A stretch of DNA of 64,000 nt from Polyangiaceae bacterium (GCA_029266615.1 JAQSWN010000025.1:23999-87998); one strand, 5' to 3'. Numbered from the stretch's first letter, positions 20,552-32,469 are shown. Program-made: numbers and translations. The notes: generated by a model not told the origin, from the letters alone.

Positions 20552-21745
20552 TCACTCGGCGGCCTTGGGCAGCTTCGGAAAGTCTCGCAAATAATGGCAG
20601 GTGTAGCCGCCGGGATTCTTCTGCAAGTAGTCCTGGTGGTAGTTCTCGGCGACCGTATAGGGGCCCGCGTCCGCGATTTGCGTCACGAGCGGGCGGGGCC
20701 ATTTGTGGCTCGCATCCACGCGCTTCTTCACACGCTCTGCCGCTTCTCGTTGTTCCAGCGAAGTCGCGAAGATGACGGAGCGGTACTGCGGGCCCACGTC
20801 GTTGCCCTGACGGTCGCGCGTGGTGGGGTCGTGCATGCGAAAGAACCAGTCTTCCAGCAAGCTCTCGTACGAGATTTTCTTCGGATCGAACACGACCCGA
20901 ACTGCTTCCGCATTGCCGGTGGTGTCGTGGTGCATGTCCTCGTACGTCACGCCGGCGCGCCCGCCGGTGTAGCCGACGTCCGTCGACACGACGCCCGGGA
21001 TCTTGCGGATGAGGTCCTGCATGCCCCAGAAGCAACCGCCCGCGAGGATTGCGGTTTCTAGCGTCGGCGTGCAGCCAGGTTGGTCGCCGGGTGCGGGACG
21101 CGCGCAACTGTTGTCCGTAGCCGTGACGGCCGCTGGCGCTTCCTTGCCGAAGAGCGGCAGGTAGTCGCCGTACCCGGACTCGGCCAGCTTGGCGACGGGG
21201 ATGAAGCGTAGCGAGGCGCTGTTGATGCAGTAGCGGAGACCGCTCGGCCGCGGGCCGTCCTCGAAGACGTGACCGAGGTGCGAGTCCCCGGCCTTGGAGC
21301 GCACTTCCGTGCGACGCATGCCGAAGGATGAATCCGTGTGGCTCACCACGCGCGACTCATCCACCGGCTTGGTGAAGCTGGGCCAGCCCGTACCGGACTC
21401 GAACTTGTCGCGCGAGCTGAACAGCGGCTCGCCGGAGGCGACGTCCACGTACAGGCCGTCCTCGTGGTTGTTCCAAAACTGATTGTTGAACGGCGGCTCG
21501 GTCGCGTCGTTCTGCGTGACCTCGTACTGGAGCGGGGTGAGCTTCTGCTTCAGCTCGGCTTCCGTGGGCTTCTTGTACATCTTCTGGGTGTCCAATCTGG
21601 GTGCGACGCGGGACGCCTGATTTTGCGCGGTCGCCGCACCGGTTTCGCTTCCTGATTTTCGCTCACACGCAAAGGTGGTGAGGCCGAGGCTCAGCGTCAA
21701 CGCGAGCCACAGCCAGTGGAGCAAGGCAGGCGCCCGGGGTTTCAT
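20552..21745 (-). CDS. Bifunctional methionine sulfoxide reductase lipoprotein, MsrB-MsrA order
   Basis: The product is about 397 aa from ATG 21745. The signal peptide ends in the lipobox LTTFAC, so the enzyme is exported and lipid-anchored. Residues about 55-190 are MsrB with catalytic Cys in [13 protein letters not shown] and the histidines of DSHLGHVF. The zinc CxxC pair is absent, as in the zinc-free subgroup. Residues about 225-390 are MsrA with catalytic Cys in [10 protein letters not shown], and [13 protein letters not shown]. It repairs both sulfoxide epimers in envelope proteins, perhaps defending against host or prey oxidants. No dedicated redox partner gene is adjacent. Confidence 0.92.
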
Positions 21746-22220: not shown

Positions 22221-23330
22221 TCAGCGCACGGCTTTGGCGTCCAGCGTGAGCTGGGCGGAGCCACCCGCCGGATCCGCGGAGAGGTCCGAGAAGCGGACCA
22301 GAAATTTGCTCGCGCCGTCTGCCCCGACGACCAGCCACACGTCGTCGCTCACGGTGAGCGGGTCCGAGCCCGGCTCGAGCCAGCGCCGGCCGAACGCAGT
22401 CACGGCGCCATCCTCCTGGTACTCGGCGCCGAGGAGCGCGTCTGCGTCCGCTTCTTCGAAGACGGCGAGCTCGGAGTCGGCGGTGCGGGCTTGAATCTGC
22501 GCTTCCGTCTCCTCGGCGGTGAGCGCGCCTTGGAGATCCACCGCCGCCATGCCTCGGGGCCCCGAAATGCCGCCATTGACGGAGACCACCTCGCGGCGAA
22601 AGCAGACGTGCCAGTCGTCCGCCTCCATCGCCTCCGCGACCGTGCGGGGCGCGACCTCTTCCGTGTCCAGGTTCAAGCACGCGGAAAGCGCGTCTGCGTC
22701 CGGTTGGCTGCCGCCGGCGGAGGCGTCGATGCCTCGGAGCTCGTGCGTTTCGCCCACGCCGGCCTCGGTGACCTCCGCGTAGCGCACATGATAGAGCGCC
22801 GGGACCGGCCCGCTCGGCTTCTCCGCGTAATAGCCGAGGACCTGCAGCTTGTAGTAGCGCTCGCCGTCTTTGAGGCCGTAGACGTGGTAGCGGCTGAACA
22901 GCTGGTGCGTGGCGCCGCCGTAGTCGTACCAGTCGACGAACGCGCCGCCCGCGCGGTCTTGGAGCATGAGCGGTACCTGGGGCGCCGTGTCCGAAAGAAA
23001 CGTGGGCGCGGAGAGCGGACCAAAGGCGCTACCGTTTCCGGGACCGGAGATGCCGCCATTCGTGAAGATGTCGCGCCCAAGAAACGCCAGATCCCAGGCG
23101 ATCGAGCTTTCCCCCTCCCCTTCTACGGTCACTTCCGAGGGTGACGCGAGCTCCACGAAGCTCCGCGCGTCCGGACCAAGCGTGAGAGTGAGTGACTGAG
23201 TGCGGGTGGCGGGCGCTCCCGCGTCGCCCTGGTTCGCTGGCTCGTTCACGCTCTCGCTCCCACAACCCAGAGGGGCGACGAGCGCGACGAGCGCGACGAA
23301 GGTCAGGTCCACCCGAGCGATCCTGGACAT
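22221..23330 (-). CDS. HmuY-family lipoprotein, apparently with two HmuY-like domains
   Basis: The product is 369 aa from ATG 23330, inside the track's longer ORF. The signal is followed by the lipobox LVAPLGC. The first domain has WDLAFLGRDIFTNGGISGPG then RYYKLQVLGYYAE. The second repeats the pattern (DDWHVCFRREVVSVNGGISG and WLVVGADGASKFLVRF). HmuY proteins are outer-surface haem-binding lipoproteins first known from Porphyromonas, and myxobacteria carry many relatives. The canonical haem-binding His pair is not evident by eye, so ligand binding is not proven. It is divergent, with an 87-base gap, from a protease-HmuY operon. Confidence 0.75.
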   Translation of the reverse strand: MSRIARVDLTFVALVALVAPLGCGSESVNEPANQGDAGAPATRTQSLTLTLGPDARSFVELASPSEVTVEGEGESSIAWDLAFLGRDIFTNGGISGPGNGSAFGPLSAPTFLSDTAPQVPLMLQDRAGGAFVDWYDYGGATHQLFSRYHVYGLKDGERYYKLQVLGYYAEKPSGPVPALYHVRYAEVTEAGVGETHELRGIDASAGGSQPDADALSACLNLDTEEVAPRTVAEAMEADDWHVCFRREVVSVNGGISGPRGMAAVDLQGALTAEETEAQIQARTADSELAVFEEADADALLGAEYQEDGAVTAFGRRWLEPGSDPLTVSDDVWLVVGADGASKFLVRFSDLSADPAGGSAQLTLDAKAVR

Positions 23331-23417
23331 GGTCCAAGGATGTCTGGAGCCGCCGCTTGCCCTCAAGTGGAAACGCGTGTGCTTGACACAAGGGCGCTTT
23401 GGCAGTCGCCTAGAGAG

Positions 23418-24755
23418 ATGCGGTGGCCCAGGAAAGCGCTGGTTCTGCTGGCGGCGCTCACCGTGGCGCCGGCGGCTCGCGGCCAAACCTGCCAAAGCCC
23501 GCGCCCGGATTACGGCCCGGCCGAGCTCGGCGTTTACGACTCCGCGAGCGGGCAGGCGCGGGTTCACTATGCGCTGATGGGGGTCCACGCGCCGCCCGTC
23601 GCCTCGACGCTGGAAGACGGAGCTCCAGACGCGGTCGTGGTCGCGGCACGAGCGGCGGACGAAGCGCTCGACCGGTACGAGGAGCTCGGCTTCGAACGTC
23701 CGCTGAGCGACGCCAGCTCCCCTTGCGCAGACAACGGCGGCAGCGGTGCCTTGGACGTGTACCTGCTGCACTTCAGCGCGGCGGACGGCCAAGCTGGGCT
23801 CGACCACTGCGCCCCCTCCACGCCTCGCCGTTGCGCCGGGTTCGTGCTGGTGGAAAACGACTTCGAAGGCGGTGGCTACGTGACCACGGCCGAAGGCCTA
23901 CGCACCGTCGTGCCGCACGAGGTGTTTCATCTCGTCCAACACGCGTACGACTCGGACTTGGAGCGGTGGTGGGCGGAGGGCTCCGCGCAGTGGGCGGCCA
24001 AACAAGTCTATCCGGAGTTGCGAGATCTGGAGCGCTTCCTCCCCGCCTACTTCGAGGTGCCTTGGCGCCCGCTCAACGTGCCCCCGCCCGGTATCATCAC
24101 CAACTTTCTCTACGCTACCGCGATCTGGCCGGTCTTCCTGCACGAACGCTGGGGCCCCGACATCGTACGCGAGGTATTCGAGCAACTGGACGGAGCCGTG
24201 GACGCCTTGCCGGCGACAGACGCGGCCTTGCAAGCGCGGGGCAGCAGCTTGGGCCAAGAATTTCTGCAATTCGCGGCGTACAACGTGGCAACGGGGAGCC
24301 GTGCCCTAGCGCGCGCGGGCTACGAAAACGCGAGCGACTACCCCGAGGTGCCCGTCGTGACACTGCCGAGCCGCACGCCCACCGACACGGCCTCCGGCTT
24401 GGGCGCCTACTACTATTCGTTGCCAGCGGGCTCGCCCGAGGTCGCGCTGGAGGGTGACCCCGAACGCGTCTCGGCCCTGCTCCTGCCGTTGAACGAGGGC
24501 CGAATCGAGCTCGACTCCGCGCAGGCTTTGCCTGCACGAACCGAGGGCGACGCCATCGTGGTCGTCGCGGCGCAGACGCTTTCGCGGACGGACGCGCCAT
24601 TCAGCGTCGTCTTCACCGGGTCGGCCCCCAGCTCAGAGCCGGAGACTTCCGGCTGCACGGTGGCGACGCGGCGCGGCGCGCTCGGCCCCGCGCTAGCCTT
24701 CTTGCTCGGCGCGGTCGCGGTCCGACGCGCCCGTCGACGAAAGGATCGTGTCTGA
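23418..24755 (+). CDS. MXAN_6640-type putative metalloprotease with MYXO-CTERM tail
   Basis: The product is 445 aa from ATG 23418, giving a signal peptide (ALVLLAALTVAPAARG) that the track's start would bury. A zinc protease motif HExxH appears as HEVFHLVQHAYDSD, followed by WWAEGSAQWAA, where the Glu of WAEG may be the third ligand. This layout matches the MXAN_6640 putative metalloprotease family. The C-terminus has Cys, a hydrophobic helix and an Arg cluster (GCTVATRR...RRARRRK), a MYXO-CTERM surface-anchor signal. Its stop overlaps the next ATG. It is probably cell-surface proteolysis, perhaps on prey or haem proteins. Confidence 0.82.
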   Translation: MRWPRKALVLLAALTVAPAARGQTCQSPRPDYGPAELGVYDSASGQARVHYALMGVHAPPVASTLEDGAPDAVVVAARAADEALDRYEELGFERPLSDASSPCADNGGSGALDVYLLHFSAADGQAGLDHCAPSTPRRCAGFVLVENDFEGGGYVTTAEGLRTVVPHEVFHLVQHAYDSDLERWWAEGSAQWAAKQVYPELRDLERFLPAYFEVPWRPLNVPPPGIITNFLYATAIWPVFLHERWGPDIVREVFEQLDGAVDALPATDAALQARGSSLGQEFLQFAAYNVATGSRALARAGYENASDYPEVPVVTLPSRTPTDTASGLGAYYYSLPAGSPEVALEGDPERVSALLLPLNEGRIELDSAQALPARTEGDAIVVVAAQTLSRTDAPFSVVFTGSAPSSEPETSGCTVATRRGALGPALAFLLGAVAVRRARRRKDRV

Positions 24756-25471
24756 TGCGTGCTCAGCTCGTCTTGATGGCTCTGCTTTCGTTGGCTTGTA
24801 GCTCCGACCCGATAGCGACCGACGGCGCAGCCGGCAGCGGTGGAGGCGCGGCCACGCCGCCACGCGCCTGCAGCGGCGCACTGAAGCAGTCCCTCGGCTT
24901 GGTCGACGAAGTCTCCTCCGCGGCCGTCTCGACGGTCGACGAGCGCGACGAGGAAAAAACCGTGTACGTGGACGCTTCGGCGGGCGGTATCGAAGGGCAA
25001 GACGAGCACGCGTGGGTATACGTCTCGCTCGCGACCGGGCAGGGCGTCGCGCTCACGGACCTCGCGGCCCTCGAGTCTCGCGACTGGGATCTGGCGTTCA
25101 AGCGCTTCGTGGTACGCACCAACAGCGGCGACAGCGGCCCCGGGCGCGGCGGCGCCGTCCGCGTTGCCTTGGACTTTGCGCAGGTAGACGCCGCCACGCT
25201 GGGCAACAAGTCGCTCCCCATCGAAGAGTGGTTCGACGACGACTGCACGCTGAGGGTGGACGAGAACGAAGAGCTCATCACCACCTTCACCGGCTGGAGC
25301 GAATACGACGAGGCGAAGCACGTTCTCAACGCCGCAGACGTGACGTACATCGCGGCCGGCGCAGACGGCGCGCTCTACAAGGTGGCCATCTTGGACTACT
25401 ACGGTACGCCGACGGGCGGCTCCGGCTCCGTCGCGGGTCGCTACTTGGTGCGCGTCGCGCCGCTGCCATGA
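24755..25471 (+). CDS. HmuY-family lipoprotein
   Basis: This 238-aa product has a short signal and lipobox LSLACSS. A single HmuY-like domain covers most of the rest: AWVYVSLATGQGVAL, DWDLAFKRFVVRTNSGDSGP, VTYIAAGADGALYKVAILDY and the end YLVRVAPLP. It should be lipid-anchored on the cell surface. The ATG overlaps the protease stop (TGATG) and its own stop overlaps the serine protease ATG, so the three are one operon. Family knowledge suggests haem or porphyrin binding, but binding residues cannot be assigned here. Confidence 0.85.
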   Translation: MRAQLVLMALLSLACSSDPIATDGAAGSGGGAATPPRACSGALKQSLGLVDEVSSAAVSTVDERDEEKTVYVDASAGGIEGQDEHAWVYVSLATGQGVALTDLAALESRDWDLAFKRFVVRTNSGDSGPGRGGAVRVALDFAQVDAATLGNKSLPIEEWFDDDCTLRVDENEELITTFTGWSEYDEAKHVLNAADVTYIAAGADGALYKVAILDYYGTPTGGSGSVAGRYLVRVAPLP

Positions 25472-26445
25472 GCGCGCTCCGGCTCGCCTGGCTGCTGCCG
25501 CTCTGCATGGCTTGCGGCGCCGAAGAGCCAACCGAGAAGCTCGGCCAAGCCGTCTACGGCGGCGAGCCGGCGCCTTCGGACGAGGCCGTCGTGGCGGTGG
25601 TGAACTTCGCGGGCGGCCAATGCTCCGGCAGCTTGCTCACGCCCACGCTGGTGCTCACCGCGCGACACTGCGTTGCCGGGACCGGCACCGAGAAAACCGG
25701 CGTCGTATGCGGCCAAACGCGCTTCGATCCCCCCGACAGCGCAGGCGCCATCTTCGTCGTTTCGCGCCCCCGGATCACGGAGGACGTGGACGACTACTCG
25801 GCCGTCGAGGACATTCGCATGCCGGACGGCTTGGGCGACGATCTGTGCGGGACGGACGTCGTCTTGCTCCGGCTCGCGGAGCCGCTTTCGGTGGTCACTC
25901 CGCTCGAGCCGCGGCTGGACGCGCCGGTCGTCGCGGGAGAGACGTACTCGGCGGTCGGCTTCGGGGTGGATCCGTCGCTCGAAGGAGAGCCTTCCGGTGA
26001 GCGAAAACGGTTAGATGATTTGCAGGTCGAGTGCCTCGCCGGCGATTGCCACGATCCGGACGTGCGCGACAACGAGTGGCTCGGCTCGGGCGGTCCGTGC
26101 AGCGGTGATTCGGGCGGCCCCGCGCTCGACACCGAAGGCCGCGTGATCGGCGTCGTGTCGCGCGGCACGGGTCGCTGCGGCGAGCCCGTGTTCGGAGACG
26201 TCGCGACGCGCGCGCCATGGTTACGTGCAGAAGCCATCTTGGCGGCCAAGCAGCGCGGCGCGGCGCCGCCGGATTGGGCGCCCTGCGGCGCCGAAGACGG
26301 CTGCGCCCAGAACGTACCGAACGTACAGGGCCCGAAGGAGAGCTGCGCGTTCGGGGCCGCTGCCCCTTCGCCCCTTTCGGCCCCGCTCGGGTTGTTTGGG
26401 GTGGTCGCACTGTGGCTCCGGCGGCCTGGGCGAAAGCGTCGATAA
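25468..26445 (+). CDS. Trypsin-like serine protease with MYXO-CTERM tail
   Basis: The product is 325 aa from ATG 25468. The track's start at 25012 lies inside the previous gene. A lipobox-like CMAC follows the signal. The S1 fold shows VYGGEPAP (the activation-site region), His in LTARHCVAG, Asp in GTDVVLLRL and Ser in GDSGGPALD, so the triad is complete. The C-terminus has Cys then a hydrophobic helix and Arg-rich end (GLFGVVALWLRRPGRKRR), a MYXO-CTERM-like anchor. It is the third gene of the protease-HmuY operon and probably a surface protease. Confidence 0.9.
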   Translation: MSALRLAWLLPLCMACGAEEPTEKLGQAVYGGEPAPSDEAVVAVVNFAGGQCSGSLLTPTLVLTARHCVAGTGTEKTGVVCGQTRFDPPDSAGAIFVVSRPRITEDVDDYSAVEDIRMPDGLGDDLCGTDVVLLRLAEPLSVVTPLEPRLDAPVVAGETYSAVGFGVDPSLEGEPSGERKRLDDLQVECLAGDCHDPDVRDNEWLGSGGPCSGDSGGPALDTEGRVIGVVSRGTGRCGEPVFGDVATRAPWLRAEAILAAKQRGAAPPDWAPCGAEDGCAQNVPNVQGPKESCAFGAAAPSPLSAPLGLFGVVALWLRRPGRKRR

Positions 26446-26478
26446 CGGTCGGTGACGGAGCCGTGCTACGCCGGCCGC

Positions 26479-27483
26479 ATGGCTTTCGGCGAAAACATCG
26501 CGCCCGACGAAGACGAGCAGTTCCAAGCCTTCGGCGAAGAGCTCGGCGCGCTACAGCGCGAACGGGCGGCTGCGCGTGGTGGTGAAATGTCGCGCGCCCT
26601 CCACGTGAAGCACCACCACGGCGCGGTGGGCGAGCTCGTCGTCAAGGCGCCGCCCAACGCACGCCACGGCGTGTTCTCCATGAGCGGCAAGAGCTGGCCC
26701 GTCTACGTGCGCTTTTCCAACGGCAGCAGCCGTCACCAAGGGGACGGAGAGCCGGACGTCCGCGGCTTCGCGCTCAAGTTGGTGGGCGTGCCCGGGAAGA
26801 AGCTCATTCCGGAGCTGGCCGACGCACCCACCCAAGACTTCTTGATGATCGACACGCCCGTCATCCCGTTCCGCAACCCGGCCGAGTTCATGATGTTCGT
26901 GCGCGCCGCCAAGGACGGGCCCGCCAAGCTGCTCCCCCGCCTCATCAGCCAGTTCGGCCTCGGGCGCGCGCTGCACATCCTGTGGGGGGCCCTCAGAACC
27001 GAGAGAGTAAAGAGCTACGCGACGCACGCATTCCATACCGCGGCGCCGGTCGCCTTCGGAAAAACTGCGGCCAAGCTCGCGCTTTTCCCCAACGGCAACC
27101 CGCAAGCGGGCCCTTCCGTGAAGGGCAACGACTACTTGCGCCAAGAGATCGCGGCGCGGCTGAAGCAGGGTCCACTGTCATGGACTTTGCGCGCGCAGCT
27201 GTTCGTGGACGAGACCCAAACGCCAATCGAGGACACGAGCGTGAAGTGGGACGCGCCGTGGGTGGATTTGGCGACGCTCACGTTACCGCAGCAAGACCCC
27301 GACTCCGTGCGTGGGCAGGAGATCTCCAAGCTCGTCAGTCAGCTCTCGTTCGATCCGTGGCACGCGAGCGAAGAACACCGCCCTCTTGGCCAAATCATGC
27401 GCGCTCGCAAGATCGCGTACGGCGTGAGCGTGATCGCACGCCAGGCCGCCGCCGAGCCGAGCTCCGTGCTCAGCCCCGGGTAG
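26479..27483 (+). CDS. Catalase-family haem protein (small y4iL-like group)
   Basis: The product is about 334 aa from ATG 26479. The track's GTG 26452 adds nine odd residues. It is far smaller than true catalases. It keeps the distal His region (LHVKHHHGAVGELV), the distal Asn region (VYVRFSNGSS) and an R-x-x-x-Y proximal haem ligand in RARKIAYGVS, preceded by FDPWHASEEHRPLGQIMRAR. Members of this group are haem proteins with weak or peroxidase-like activity on hydroperoxides. No signal peptide is seen. It follows the serine protease by 33 bases and may belong to the same haem-related operon. It overlaps the convergent DUF2252 gene by 14 bases. Confidence 0.82.
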   Translation: MAFGENIAPDEDEQFQAFGEELGALQRERAAARGGEMSRALHVKHHHGAVGELVVKAPPNARHGVFSMSGKSWPVYVRFSNGSSRHQGDGEPDVRGFALKLVGVPGKKLIPELADAPTQDFLMIDTPVIPFRNPAEFMMFVRAAKDGPAKLLPRLISQFGLGRALHILWGALRTERVKSYATHAFHTAAPVAFGKTAAKLALFPNGNPQAGPSVKGNDYLRQEIAARLKQGPLSWTLRAQLFVDETQTPIEDTSVKWDAPWVDLATLTLPQQDPDSVRGQEISKLVSQLSFDPWHASEEHRPLGQIMRARKIAYGVSVIARQAAAEPSSVLSPG

Positions 27484-28699: not shown

Positions 28700-28959
28700 G
28701 ACTTCGACGCTACAGCGGGCGGCTCGCTACCGCCGCTTCCATTTTCCGTGGTCCGGGCGGCGGTGGCTTGGGCTGCGCCCAAGCGCAAACACGCGATCCT
28801 GGAGGATCCCTAGCGCCGTGGGCGGGCTCGTTACAGCTCCGCCGCACTTCGTCCGCGCGAGTCAGCTGCGTCAGCTCGAAAAGCCGGCGACGACGAGCAG
28901 CAACGTGGATTTTCCCCCGTTGTCGCAGTCGCTCATTAGGGATACGAAGCACTCTGTCC

Positions 28960-31900
28960 ATGTCAAACCGTCGCTTATGGGCTTTTGGAGGCGCGGTGTG
29001 CGTGGCGCTGGTCGTGGGGAGCGGCTGCAGCAGTGAGCAGCCGCGGACGGAGGAAGGGCCGCTGGGGCAAACCAGCGCGGCGCTGTCTCTCTCCACTCCC
29101 GGCTTCGTGGAGACGACGGTCTTCCAAGGCTTGAACGAGCCCACCGTGGTGCGCTTCGCGAGTGACGGCCGGGCCTTCGTCGCGGAAAAGGGCGGTAAGG
29201 TCTGGATCTACGACTCGCTCACCGACACGACGCCCACGCTGTTCACGGATCTCGCCAGCCGCGTTCACGATTTTTGGGACCGCGGCATGTTGGGCATGAC
29301 GTTGGACCCTGCGTTCCCCGCCCAGCCCTATGTCTACGTGCTCTACGCGTACGATGGCGATCCGGGCGGCAGCTCTCCCAAGTGGGGTGACTCGTGTCCC
29401 ACGCCTCCCGGCGCCACCGCGGACGGCTGCATCGTATCAGGTCGGCTTTCTCGCTTTACTGTCACGGACAACACGGCGGGCGCCGAGAAGGTCCTGCTCG
29501 AGGGCTGGCGGCAGCAGTACCCGAGCCACTCCACGGGTCAGGTCGAATTCGGACCCGACGGCGCGCTCTATGCGTCCGGGGGGGACGGGGCGAGCTTCAA
29601 CTTCGTCGACTACGGCCAAGACGGCAATCCGCTCAATCCGCTAGGCGATCCGCCGGTGGCGGTCGGTCAGGTGCAAACGCCGCCGAGCGCCGAGGGCGGC
29701 GCGCTGCGTTCTCAGAGCGTGCGCCGGGCTGCCGGCCCTGTTTTGCTCAACGGCACCGTGATTCGGGTGGATGCGGCAACAGGCGCGGCGTTGCCCGGCA
29801 ACCCGCTCCAAGGGTCGACGGACCCGATCGCCCAGCGTGTCATCGCCTACGGCCTCCGCAATCCCTTCCGCATCGCGGCGCGGCCCGGCAAGAACGAGCT
29901 CTGGGTCGCCGACGTGGGCTGGAACGATTGGGAGGAAGTGAATCGTATCCCGCTCGGCGGAGCGGCCCCGCTCAACTTCGGTTGGCCTTGCTACGAAGGC
30001 GGAAACCGCCAACCCGGCTACGAAGGCGCGGGCCTCGCCCAGTGCGAGTCGCTGTACGCTGCGGGTAGCCACAGCGCGCCCTTCTTCGCGTACAGCCATT
30101 CGGCGGGCGTCTCTGCGAGCGATGCCTGCGGCCGCGGCAGCTCCTCCATCACGGGCATCGCCTTCTACTCCGGAACGAGTTACCCAAAGCCGTATCAAGG
30201 CGCGATGTTCTTCGCGGATTACTCGCGCCGCTGCATTTACGTCATGGAGGCCGGGACTGACGGCGAGCCCGCGGCCGCTACCGCCCGCTCCTTCCATGTC
30301 GACGCGGACGGCCCCGTTTTCCTCACCACCGGGCCCGGCGGCGACTTGTTTTATGCCGCGCTCACCTCGGGGACGATCCAGCGCATCAGCTACTTGCAAC
30401 CGGCGGCGGTGATCAAGGCCGCGCCGGTTCAAGGGCAAGTGCCGCTCATCGTCAACTTCGACGGCTCCGCTTCGACCAAGGCGCTCCCCGGCGACACGCT
30501 GAGTTACGCCTGGGATCTCGACGGCGATGGCGGGTTCGACGACGCGACGGATCTCAAGCCTGCGTACCTCTACGACACGGTCGGCAAATACCCGGTGCGC
30601 CTGAAGGTGACGGACCAGCGCGGCGTCTCGAACGTGAGCCAAGCGCTCGTCGTGGACGCGACCGCAGAGACGCCTCCCGTGAGCACGCCGCCGGAAGTCT
30701 TCATCGATACGCCCCTCACCTCCACACGGTGGAAGGTGGGGGACACGATCGGCTTCAGTGGTCACGCGGTCGACGCAGAGGACGGCAAGCTCCCCGCCTC
30801 CGCGCTGTCCTGGCAAATCGTGATTCAGCACTGCCCGAGCGGCTGCCATTTGCACGACTTGCTTTCCTTCGAGGGCGTCGCGAGCGGCACCTTCCCGGCC
30901 GAAGATCACGAGTACCCCATGCGGCTCGAGGTCATTCTCACCGCGACCGATAAATCCGGCCAGAAGCGCACCGTACGGCGGGAGCTCTTGCCGCAGACGG
31001 TGAGCCTCGTCTTCGACACGGAGCCGAGCGGGCTCTCGCTCGTCGTTGGCTCGACCGAGCAGAAGACGCCGTTTTCTCGTCGAGTGATCGCGGGCTCCGA
31101 GAACACCGTGTCGGCCGCGCTGAGCCAAGCGCTGAACGGCGCAACCTGGACGTTCAGCCAGTGGTCAGACGGCTTGCCGCGCGCTCACACCCTCGCCGAC
31201 GCAACCACCGCGAAGCGGTATGTCGCCACGTACGCGCCCGCCGGCGGCCTCACCGCCCAGTACTTCGATCAGCTCGCGTTTGGCGGCTCCCCGCTCACGC
31301 GGATTGACCCCATCATCGACTTCGACTGGGGCAACGGCTCGCCGGATCCGAGCATCGGCGCCGACACCTTCTCCGCTCGCTGGACGGGTGAGATCAAAGC
31401 CGACTTCGCCCAGACGTACACCTTCCGCACCACGTCGGACGACGGAGTGCGTTTGACGATAGACGGCGTGGCCGTCATCGACCAATTCACCGACCATGGT
31501 CCCACCGCTCACAACGGTGAAATCGCGCTCACGATTGGCTGGCACGACATCGTGGTCGAGTACTACGAAAACGGAGGTGGTGCACAGCTGGAGCTCGGTT
31601 GGTCGAGCCCCTCGCAGCCCTACCAAATCGTGCCGGCGACCCACCTGCGCCCCGGGTGCGCCGCAGGGATTTGCAGCCCGGGCCAAGTGTGCGGCACGGG
31701 CGACCTCTGCACGCCCGCGTGCGACCCCGCGACGTGCAAAGACAGCAAGCACTGCGTGGCCAGCTCTGGCGCGTGCGTCTCGCTCTGCTCGGGCGTGAAG
31801 TGCCCAACCGGCGATAAGTGCGTAACGGGCGGAGTATGCGTGGACGCCTGCACCGGCGTAGCGTGCGAGTCGGACCAGCACTGCGAGCTGGGAAAGTGCG

Positions 31901-32469
31901 TGGACAATCCCCCCGATGGCAGCGGAGGCGCTGGCGGTCAGAGTGGCGCCGGCGGCGAAGGCGGAGAGCTCTCGTCGGGCGGAGCCAGCGGCAACGGCGG
32001 TGCGGCTGGCAACGCTGGAACCGCCAGCAACGGCGGTGCGGCTGGCAACGCTGGAACCGCGAGTAACGGCGGCAACAGCGCAGCCGGTAGCGCCACGGCT
32101 GGCAACGGCACCGGCGGCACCAGTGCGGGTGCGACGAGCGGCGGAGCCCACGCGGATGCAGGCGCGCCCACCGACGGCGGTGTCGCGACGGCTGGCACCT
32201 CCGCCAGCGCCGGCGAGAACGCCGGCGGCACAGGCGCGAGCTCCAGCGGCGGCGCAGGTGCGGAACCCGCGACGAGCGGCTCCGGCGGCACGAACTCCAG
32301 CTCGAACGGCGGCGAGCCCGCGGGCGAGCCCCCAGGTGGTAGCAGCTCCGGCAATGACGAGAGCGGCTGCAGCTGCCGCACCGTGGGCGCACCGCCGAGC
32401 CACGACAACGGTTGGCTTTGGCTCGGCAGCGCGCTCGCCGTCACGCTGACGCGGCGCCGCAAGCGTTGA
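28960..32469 (+). CDS. Giant surface lipoprotein: GSDH (PQQ sugar dehydrogenase-like), PKD, PA14, Cys-rich and MYXO-CTERM
   Basis: The product is 1169 aa from ATG 28960, with lipobox VVGSGC. Residues about 35-470 are a glucose/sorbosone dehydrogenase-like beta-propeller (FVAEKGGKVWIYDS, YGLRNPFRIAARPG). About 482-568 are a PKD domain (YAWDLDGDGGF). About 763-893 are a PA14 domain (GLTAQYFDQ, FRTTSDDGVRLTIDG), which often binds glycans. About 893-985 hold regular Cys pairs, followed by a 150-residue Gly/Ala/Ser-rich linker. The end has Cys, one helix and RRRKR (MYXO-CTERM). It is probably a cell-surface sugar oxidase or adhesin. The enzyme activity is inferred from the fold only. Confidence 0.88.
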   Translation: MSNRRLWAFGGAVCVALVVGSGCSSEQPRTEEGPLGQTSAALSLSTPGFVETTVFQGLNEPTVVRFASDGRAFVAEKGGKVWIYDSLTDTTPTLFTDLASRVHDFWDRGMLGMTLDPAFPAQPYVYVLYAYDGDPGGSSPKWGDSCPTPPGATADGCIVSGRLSRFTVTDNTAGAEKVLLEGWRQQYPSHSTGQVEFGPDGALYASGGDGASFNFVDYGQDGNPLNPLGDPPVAVGQVQTPPSAEGGALRSQSVRRAAGPVLLNGTVIRVDAATGAALPGNPLQGSTDPIAQRVIAYGLRNPFRIAARPGKNELWVADVGWNDWEEVNRIPLGGAAPLNFGWPCYEGGNRQPGYEGAGLAQCESLYAAGSHSAPFFAYSHSAGVSASDACGRGSSSITGIAFYSGTSYPKPYQGAMFFADYSRRCIYVMEAGTDGEPAAATARSFHVDADGPVFLTTGPGGDLFYAALTSGTIQRISYLQPAAVIKAAPVQGQVPLIVNFDGSASTKALPGDTLSYAWDLDGDGGFDDATDLKPAYLYDTVGKYPVRLKVTDQRGVSNVSQALVVDATAETPPVSTPPEVFIDTPLTSTRWKVGDTIGFSGHAVDAEDGKLPASALSWQIVIQHCPSGCHLHDLLSFEGVASGTFPAEDHEYPMRLEVILTATDKSGQKRTVRRELLPQTVSLVFDTEPSGLSLVVGSTEQKTPFSRRVIAGSENTVSAALSQALNGATWTFSQWSDGLPRAHTLADATTAKRYVATYAPAGGLTAQYFDQLAFGGSPLTRIDPIIDFDWGNGSPDPSIGADTFSARWTGEIKADFAQTYTFRTTSDDGVRLTIDGVAVIDQFTDHGPTAHNGEIALTIGWHDIVVEYYENGGGAQLELGWSSPSQPYQIVPATHLRPGCAAGICSPGQVCGTGDLCTPACDPATCKDSKHCVASSGACVSLCSGVKCPTGDKCVTGGVCVDACTGVACESDQHCELGKCVDNPPDGSGGAGGQSGAGGEGGELSSGGASGNGGAAGNAGTASNGGAAGNAGTASNGGNSAAGSATAGNGTGGTSAGATSGGAHADAGAPTDGGVATAGTSASAGENAGGTGASSSGGAGAEPATSGSGGTNSSSNGGEPAGEPPGGSSSGNDESGCSCRTVGAPPSHDNGWLWLGSALAVTLTRRRKR
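31993..32060 (+). repeat. Tandem 36-bp repeat in the Gly/Ala-rich linker
   Basis: A 32-base block beginning AACGGCGGTGCGGCTGGCAA is perfectly repeated at 31993 and 32029, a period of 36 bases or 12 codons, encoding NGGAAGNAGTAS. It suggests recent in-frame slippage that lengthens the linker of the surface protein. Confidence 0.9.

Follow-up and report, generated by a model that had tools for sequence, protein, structure and literature searches.

The window considered here, a stretch of 64,000 nucleotides from a Polyangiaceae bacterium (GCA_029266615.1 JAQSWN010000025.1:23999-87998), harbors between positions 22221 and 27483 two HmuY-family lipoprotein genes, two protease genes and a catalase-family gene, arranged as follows (L180 denotes the sister locus):

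22221-23330, minus strand: HmuYA, a lipoprotein of 369 aa with two HmuY domains (PF14064 in two stretches)
23331-23417: divergent intergenic region, with a TTGACA motif in common with L180 and without a Fur box
23418-24755, plus strand: M6640, an HExxH metalloprotease of the MXAN_6640 family (NF045524), 445 aa, with a signal peptide and a C-terminal Cys-TM-Arg tail
24755-25471, plus strand: HmuYB, a lipoprotein of 238 aa with one HmuY domain (PF14064)
25468-26445, plus strand: a trypsin-fold serine protease (PF00089), 325 aa, with a lipobox-like N-terminus and a Cys-TM-Arg tail
26480-27483, plus strand: a small catalase-family haem protein (PF00199), related to PDB 3e4w

This gene order, with HmuYA divergent from M6640, HmuYB, the trypsin-like gene and the catalase-family gene, had been proposed in the first-pass annotation, and the Pfam and NCBIfam matches agree with it. 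The overlaps of one to four bases reported for the three central genes were also observed: 1 base between M6640 and HmuYB (TGATG at 24755) and 4 bases between HmuYB and the trypsin-like gene (ATGA, 25468-25471). Two starts were corrected; M6640 most likely begins at 23418 and not at 23340, with support from L180, and the catalase-family gene begins at the ATG at 26480, the same as in L180. HmuYA and HmuYB were the only HmuY genes returned by a search of the whole genome. Beyond the cluster, a gene downstream of HmuYA (20552-21745, minus strand) was named by eye as an MsrA-MsrB-like methionine sulfoxide reductase fusion with a lipoprotein-like N-terminus, sharing 92% protein identity with its counterpart at L180 (dN/dS 0.05), and on the other side (28768-32469, plus strand) a gene encodes a large secreted protein that combines glucose/sorbosone dehydrogenase, PKD and PA14 domains and ends in a Cys-TM-Arg tail.

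M6640 scored 189 bits against NF045524 (cut-off 140), and its HExxH...E residues (H167, E168, H171, E187) are unchanged in 17 homologues; no sequence relative of it was found among solved structures. The serine protease (PF00089, E=6.9e-19) is complete, as had been claimed, its triad H67/D130/S215 being intact and conserved among homologues. Since its equivalent of residue 189 is a Gly, the cutting after Lys or Arg characteristic of trypsin and of gingipains is not predicted and appears unlikely. Homologues of this enzyme lie immediately 3' of M6640 in Labilithrix-type operons. Both proteases end in a Cys, a hydrophobic stretch and an Arg-rich terminus; the MYXO-CTERM-like anchors described earlier are therefore visible by eye, but neither tail was matched by the NCBIfam MYXO-CTERM model. 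The catalase-family protein, for which no signal peptide was seen by eye, matched PF00199 weakly (33 bits, cut-off 25) and PDB 3e4w with E=1.1e-12. Its place in the operon is probably peripheral, because the gene is kept only at L180 and is absent beside HmuYA in other loci.

Against PF14064 the two lipoproteins scored 47.0 and 55.2 bits (curated cut-off 27), with E-values of 3.9e-12 for HmuYA, in two stretches, and 1.2e-14 for HmuYB. The AlphaFold model of HmuYB reached a pLDDT of 84.9, and its top 12 Foldseek matches were all HmuY-family structures, with Bacteroides fragilis BfrB (8b6a) first, followed by Porphyromonas gingivalis HmuY. The model of the two-domain HmuYA, built on 9 sequences, was too poor for a judgement of fold alone, and its loops were therefore mapped by sequence alignment. 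In PMC12106395, the iron ligands of the HmuY family are given as His-His, His-Met or Met-Met pairs; 8b6a is described there as binding haem via tyrosines, without iron ligands, 8b61 as binding neither haem nor porphyrin, and B. fragilis HmuY-3 as an example that family members can be without haem binding. The paired His/Met pocket looked for in these proteins is matched as far as the HmuY fold of HmuYB, but the residues are not conserved: by alignment, neither HmuYA nor HmuYB has conserved counterparts of the P. gingivalis haem ligands His134/His166 or of Tyr89/Tyr165, through which B. fragilis HmuY-2 binds porphyrin, and the myxobacterial HmuYA and HmuYB alignments (A1, A2) contain no conserved His/Met pair. 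In the relevant HmuYA loop, His142 is unchanged in 23 of 23 sequences and His149 nearly so; by sequence, neither occupies the P. gingivalis position. The B. fragilis protein that binds neither haem nor porphyrin (Bf-3) is among the nearest HmuY structures. As the known ligands are not conserved, haem binding is backed by genomic context and not by residues.

That context is broadly conserved. Within the same family (98 genomes), 36 of 38 MXAN_6640 matches above the cut-off adjoin a HmuY gene, and in the two exceptions HmuY was found on a different contig. Across the phylum (379 genomes), at least 79 of the 100 listed matches above the cut-off adjoin HmuY, a count made up of 51 with a listed HmuY no more than 7 kb away, 27 of 40 others with HmuY within about 4 kb, and locus L078 (genome G349); several of the remainder lie at contig ends, and eight that score just above the cut-off and lack the N-terminal part of the model were counted as not adjacent. 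A named collection provided 27 M6640 loci, among them those of Labilithrix, Minicystis rosea and six genomes of Nannocystis; a HmuY neighbor is present in 24 of the 26 with called genes, and in the other two the contig starts a short way upstream of the protease gene. The conservation of the neighborhood on which the earlier proposal depended is accordingly strong, and the uncharacterised MXAN_6640 protease family appears, from gene order, to be a standing partner of the HmuY family in Myxococcota. Chance pairing was considered as well and is ruled out by the linkage counts, chance adjacency in genomes of about 8 Mb being well under 1%.

In the relatives, the usual order is TonB receptor, HmuYA, HmuYB and M6640, followed by the trypsin-like protease in Labilithrix-type genomes and elsewhere by a periplasmic binding protein, a FecCD permease, an ABC ATPase and HemS; in Nannocystis, the order is binding protein, FecCD, ABC, HmuY and M6640. 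Representative partner genes, such as those of the FecCD/Peripla_BP_2/ABC importer, were assigned by Pfam. Among HmuYA orthologues in 30 other loci, 27 are accompanied by a TonB receptor and eight have HemS within six genes; HemS occurs in 11 of the 98 family genomes and adjoins HmuY in nine of these. The top NCBIfam match of the relatives' receptor, below its cut-off, is a haem/haemoglobin receptor family. All 27 distinct receptors beside HmuYA share the motif F/Y-R-A/V-P followed by 10 residues and a His, which was not found in receptors near other HmuY types; by the example of HemR-type receptors, we take this His to be linked to haem receptors. Several rearranged variants were also seen: M6640 and a Peripla_BP_2 binding protein occupy one open reading frame at L089:9942-12167 (by Pfam) and, judged by gene size and layout, at L074:9928-12105; at L083:6413-7918, M6640 ends in FecCD-permease-like residues, suggesting a deletion of the binding protein and permease; and in two loci of the same family (L071:9090-10172 and L077:3639-4508) DUF6607 proteins, a possible haem-operon component, lie between HmuYB and the TonB receptor.

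Iron control is likewise indicated in the relatives. Upstream of their receptors, 16 of 28 regions agree with the Fur consensus of E. coli in 13-17 of its 19 positions, a level reached by 0-1 of 50 shuffles per region; some genomes in this set are closely related to one another, which brings the independent Fur-box events below 16. A matrix derived from these sites also gave strong hits ahead of HmuY or transporter genes at other loci. At the window locus, the best intergenic match to the E. coli consensus was 9 of 19, a level reached by 42 of 50 shuffles, and no Fur box was found there, at L180 or in the HmuYA regions of the same-genus loci L062 and L063.

The window locus also has no TonB receptor beside HmuYA, and the three of 30 HmuYA loci without one are L062, L063 and L180. 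At L062:662-3526 and L063:4597-7470, the place of the receptor is taken by an M28 aminopeptidase gene (with PD40, PA and PDZ domains) that abuts or overlaps HmuYA. In the genome of the window, in which other TonB receptors are present, we found neither an orthologue of the relatives' receptor nor HemS, although these absences are provisional because the assembly comprises 444 contigs with 7% contamination. At the level of sequence, the iron response that had been anticipated is thus not apparent in this genome, with no Fur box, linked receptor or HemS. The single FecCD permease, which was checked as a possible unlinked haem importer, lies among housekeeping-type genes with no receptor near; it scores best as BtuC (B12), below the cut-off. 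The same holds for the permeases in the haem operons of the relatives, and the score therefore does not settle its substrate. A ferrochelatase is present, and haem auxotrophy is therefore probably not the case. The genes of the locus are nevertheless under purifying selection: at L180, which belongs to a metagenome-assembled genome, the whole neighborhood is kept at 78% DNA identity, with dN/dS values of 0.29 for HmuYA, 0.26 for M6640, 0.21 for HmuYB, 0.24 for the trypsin-like gene and 0.10 for the catalase-family gene.

The earlier reading of the cluster as a haem-scavenging module therefore holds better for the system than for this copy of it. In the relatives, the receptor, the FecCD/Peripla_BP_2/ABC importer, HemS and, mostly, Fur boxes make a haem role well supported, whereas here the receptor, HemS and Fur box are absent and the ligands are not conserved. 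On balance, the window locus is probably a derivative, without receptor and without Fur control, of a haem-uptake operon widespread in Myxococcota. We infer haem as the ligand, the substrates of the proteases, the location at the surface and prey as the source. The MXAN_6640 metalloprotease, joined in some lineages by the serine protease, would be anchored at the cell surface beside the HmuY lipoproteins, where the proteases would cut haemoproteins of prey or dead cells and the HmuY proteins would capture the freed haem, or the haemoprotein itself; the TonB receptor would then import the haem, and the FecCD-type ABC transporter together with HemS would finish uptake and iron release. In the present genome, the half concerned with capture and cutting would be retained and import would proceed via an unlinked receptor; alternatively, the module may serve haemoprotein breakdown or haem sequestration with no dedicated import.

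A change of function at the level of the genus, in which the HmuY proteins would be general surface-binding lipoproteins of a secreted proteolysis unit without haem import, is in our estimation rather unlikely. It would account for the fact that this genome, L180 and the two same-genus genomes have lost both receptor and Fur box, for the lack of HemS here and for the purifying selection that nonetheless acts on the genes, and B. fragilis HmuY-3 provides a precedent for a family member without haem binding (PMC12106395); on the other hand, both HmuY genes and both proteases have been kept together, and other TonB receptors of the genome could import haem. Somewhat less probable still is the explanation that M6640 is not a haemoprotein degrader and instead matures or sheds its HmuY partner, by trimming or by release from the lipid anchor, a proteolytic release having been put forward for the HmuY of P. 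gingivalis. A dedicated protein partner would fit the tight linkage and translational coupling that M6640 and HmuY show also at loci without a receptor close by, and PMC2671838 describes a possible site of protease cleavage in the P. gingivalis protein. The second, trypsin-like protease in several operons, however, and the M28 aminopeptidase with which HmuYA is coupled in two genomes of the same genus suggest the digestion of external protein as a theme.

We regard it as highly unlikely that the cluster serves haem detoxification or the response to oxidative stress, with HmuY sequestering haem released by predation and the catalase-family protein and MsrAB handling peroxide and oxidised methionine. 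The catalase-family gene and the MsrA-MsrB-like fusion do flank the cluster and are both kept at L180, but the former does not accompany HmuYA in other loci and its product has no signal peptide by eye.

In P. gingivalis, gingipains assist HmuY (PMC3040768), and this HmuY/HmuR system (PMC3040768, PMC2671838) has several features in common with the one described here: an HmuY-fold lipoprotein, a TonB receptor partner (here in the relatives) and a proposed cooperation with proteases. The differences are that the proteases coupled to HmuY in the operon are of the HExxH metalloprotease and trypsin-fold types instead of being cysteine gingipains, that His134/His166 are absent and that this genome has no linked receptor. 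Among solved structures, B. fragilis HmuY-2 (BfrB, PDB 8B6A) is the HmuY closest in both sequence and fold; it has no His/Met coordinating the iron of the haem that it binds, and the Tyr89 and Tyr165 with which it contacts porphyrin are not conserved in the proteins described here. Within the phylum, HmuY-HmuR pairs in Myxococcus, Stigmatella and Plesiocystis were mentioned in 2009 as unpublished data (PMC2671838); these are pairs of the same family, and in the available part of that text no protease partner is described, so that the HmuYA/HmuYB pair and the coupling to MXAN_6640 are what is added here. In M. xanthus, an iron-linked six-gene hemin transport regulon, MXAN_1316-1321, has been reported (PMC3986340), which is plausibly the same operon as a six-gene TonB-HmuY-SBP-FecCD-ABC-HugZ-like cluster in genomes G058 and G214, a cluster without an M6640 protease. 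Such a six-gene cluster, possibly the M. xanthus operon, occupies L219:3839-10890 and L220:3801-10715 in large Myxococcota genomes, with genes for a TonB receptor, HmuY, a binding protein, FecCD, ABC and a HugZ-like (CREG/DUF2470) protein; the HmuY at L219 has three domains. In one figure legend on a Porphyromonas cluster, a gene for an S8 peptidase is listed close to the hmu genes (PMC12106395). In the portions of the literature available, no report of an HmuY-coupled MXAN_6640 protease and no mention of MXAN_6640 was found. Set against the HmuY-HmuR pairs already known from myxobacteria, the new element would be the protease that is built into the HmuY-type haem-uptake system.

More tentatively, MXAN_6640 proteins may be dedicated partner proteases of haemophores, and Myxococcota may have independently evolved an operon-encoded form of haem extraction by protease and HmuY, with a HmuY pocket from which the known ligands are missing, two-domain HmuY proteins included, and, in one genus, the capture half without its receptor; this wider proposal is possible, though we would not yet favor it. 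Our analyses give an uncharacterised and widespread protease family a function that can be tested, for which culturable relatives are available. They point to a possible second origin of the partnership between protease and HmuY, so far demonstrated for P. gingivalis, and suggest that predatory bacteria may exploit the haem of other cells as an iron source.
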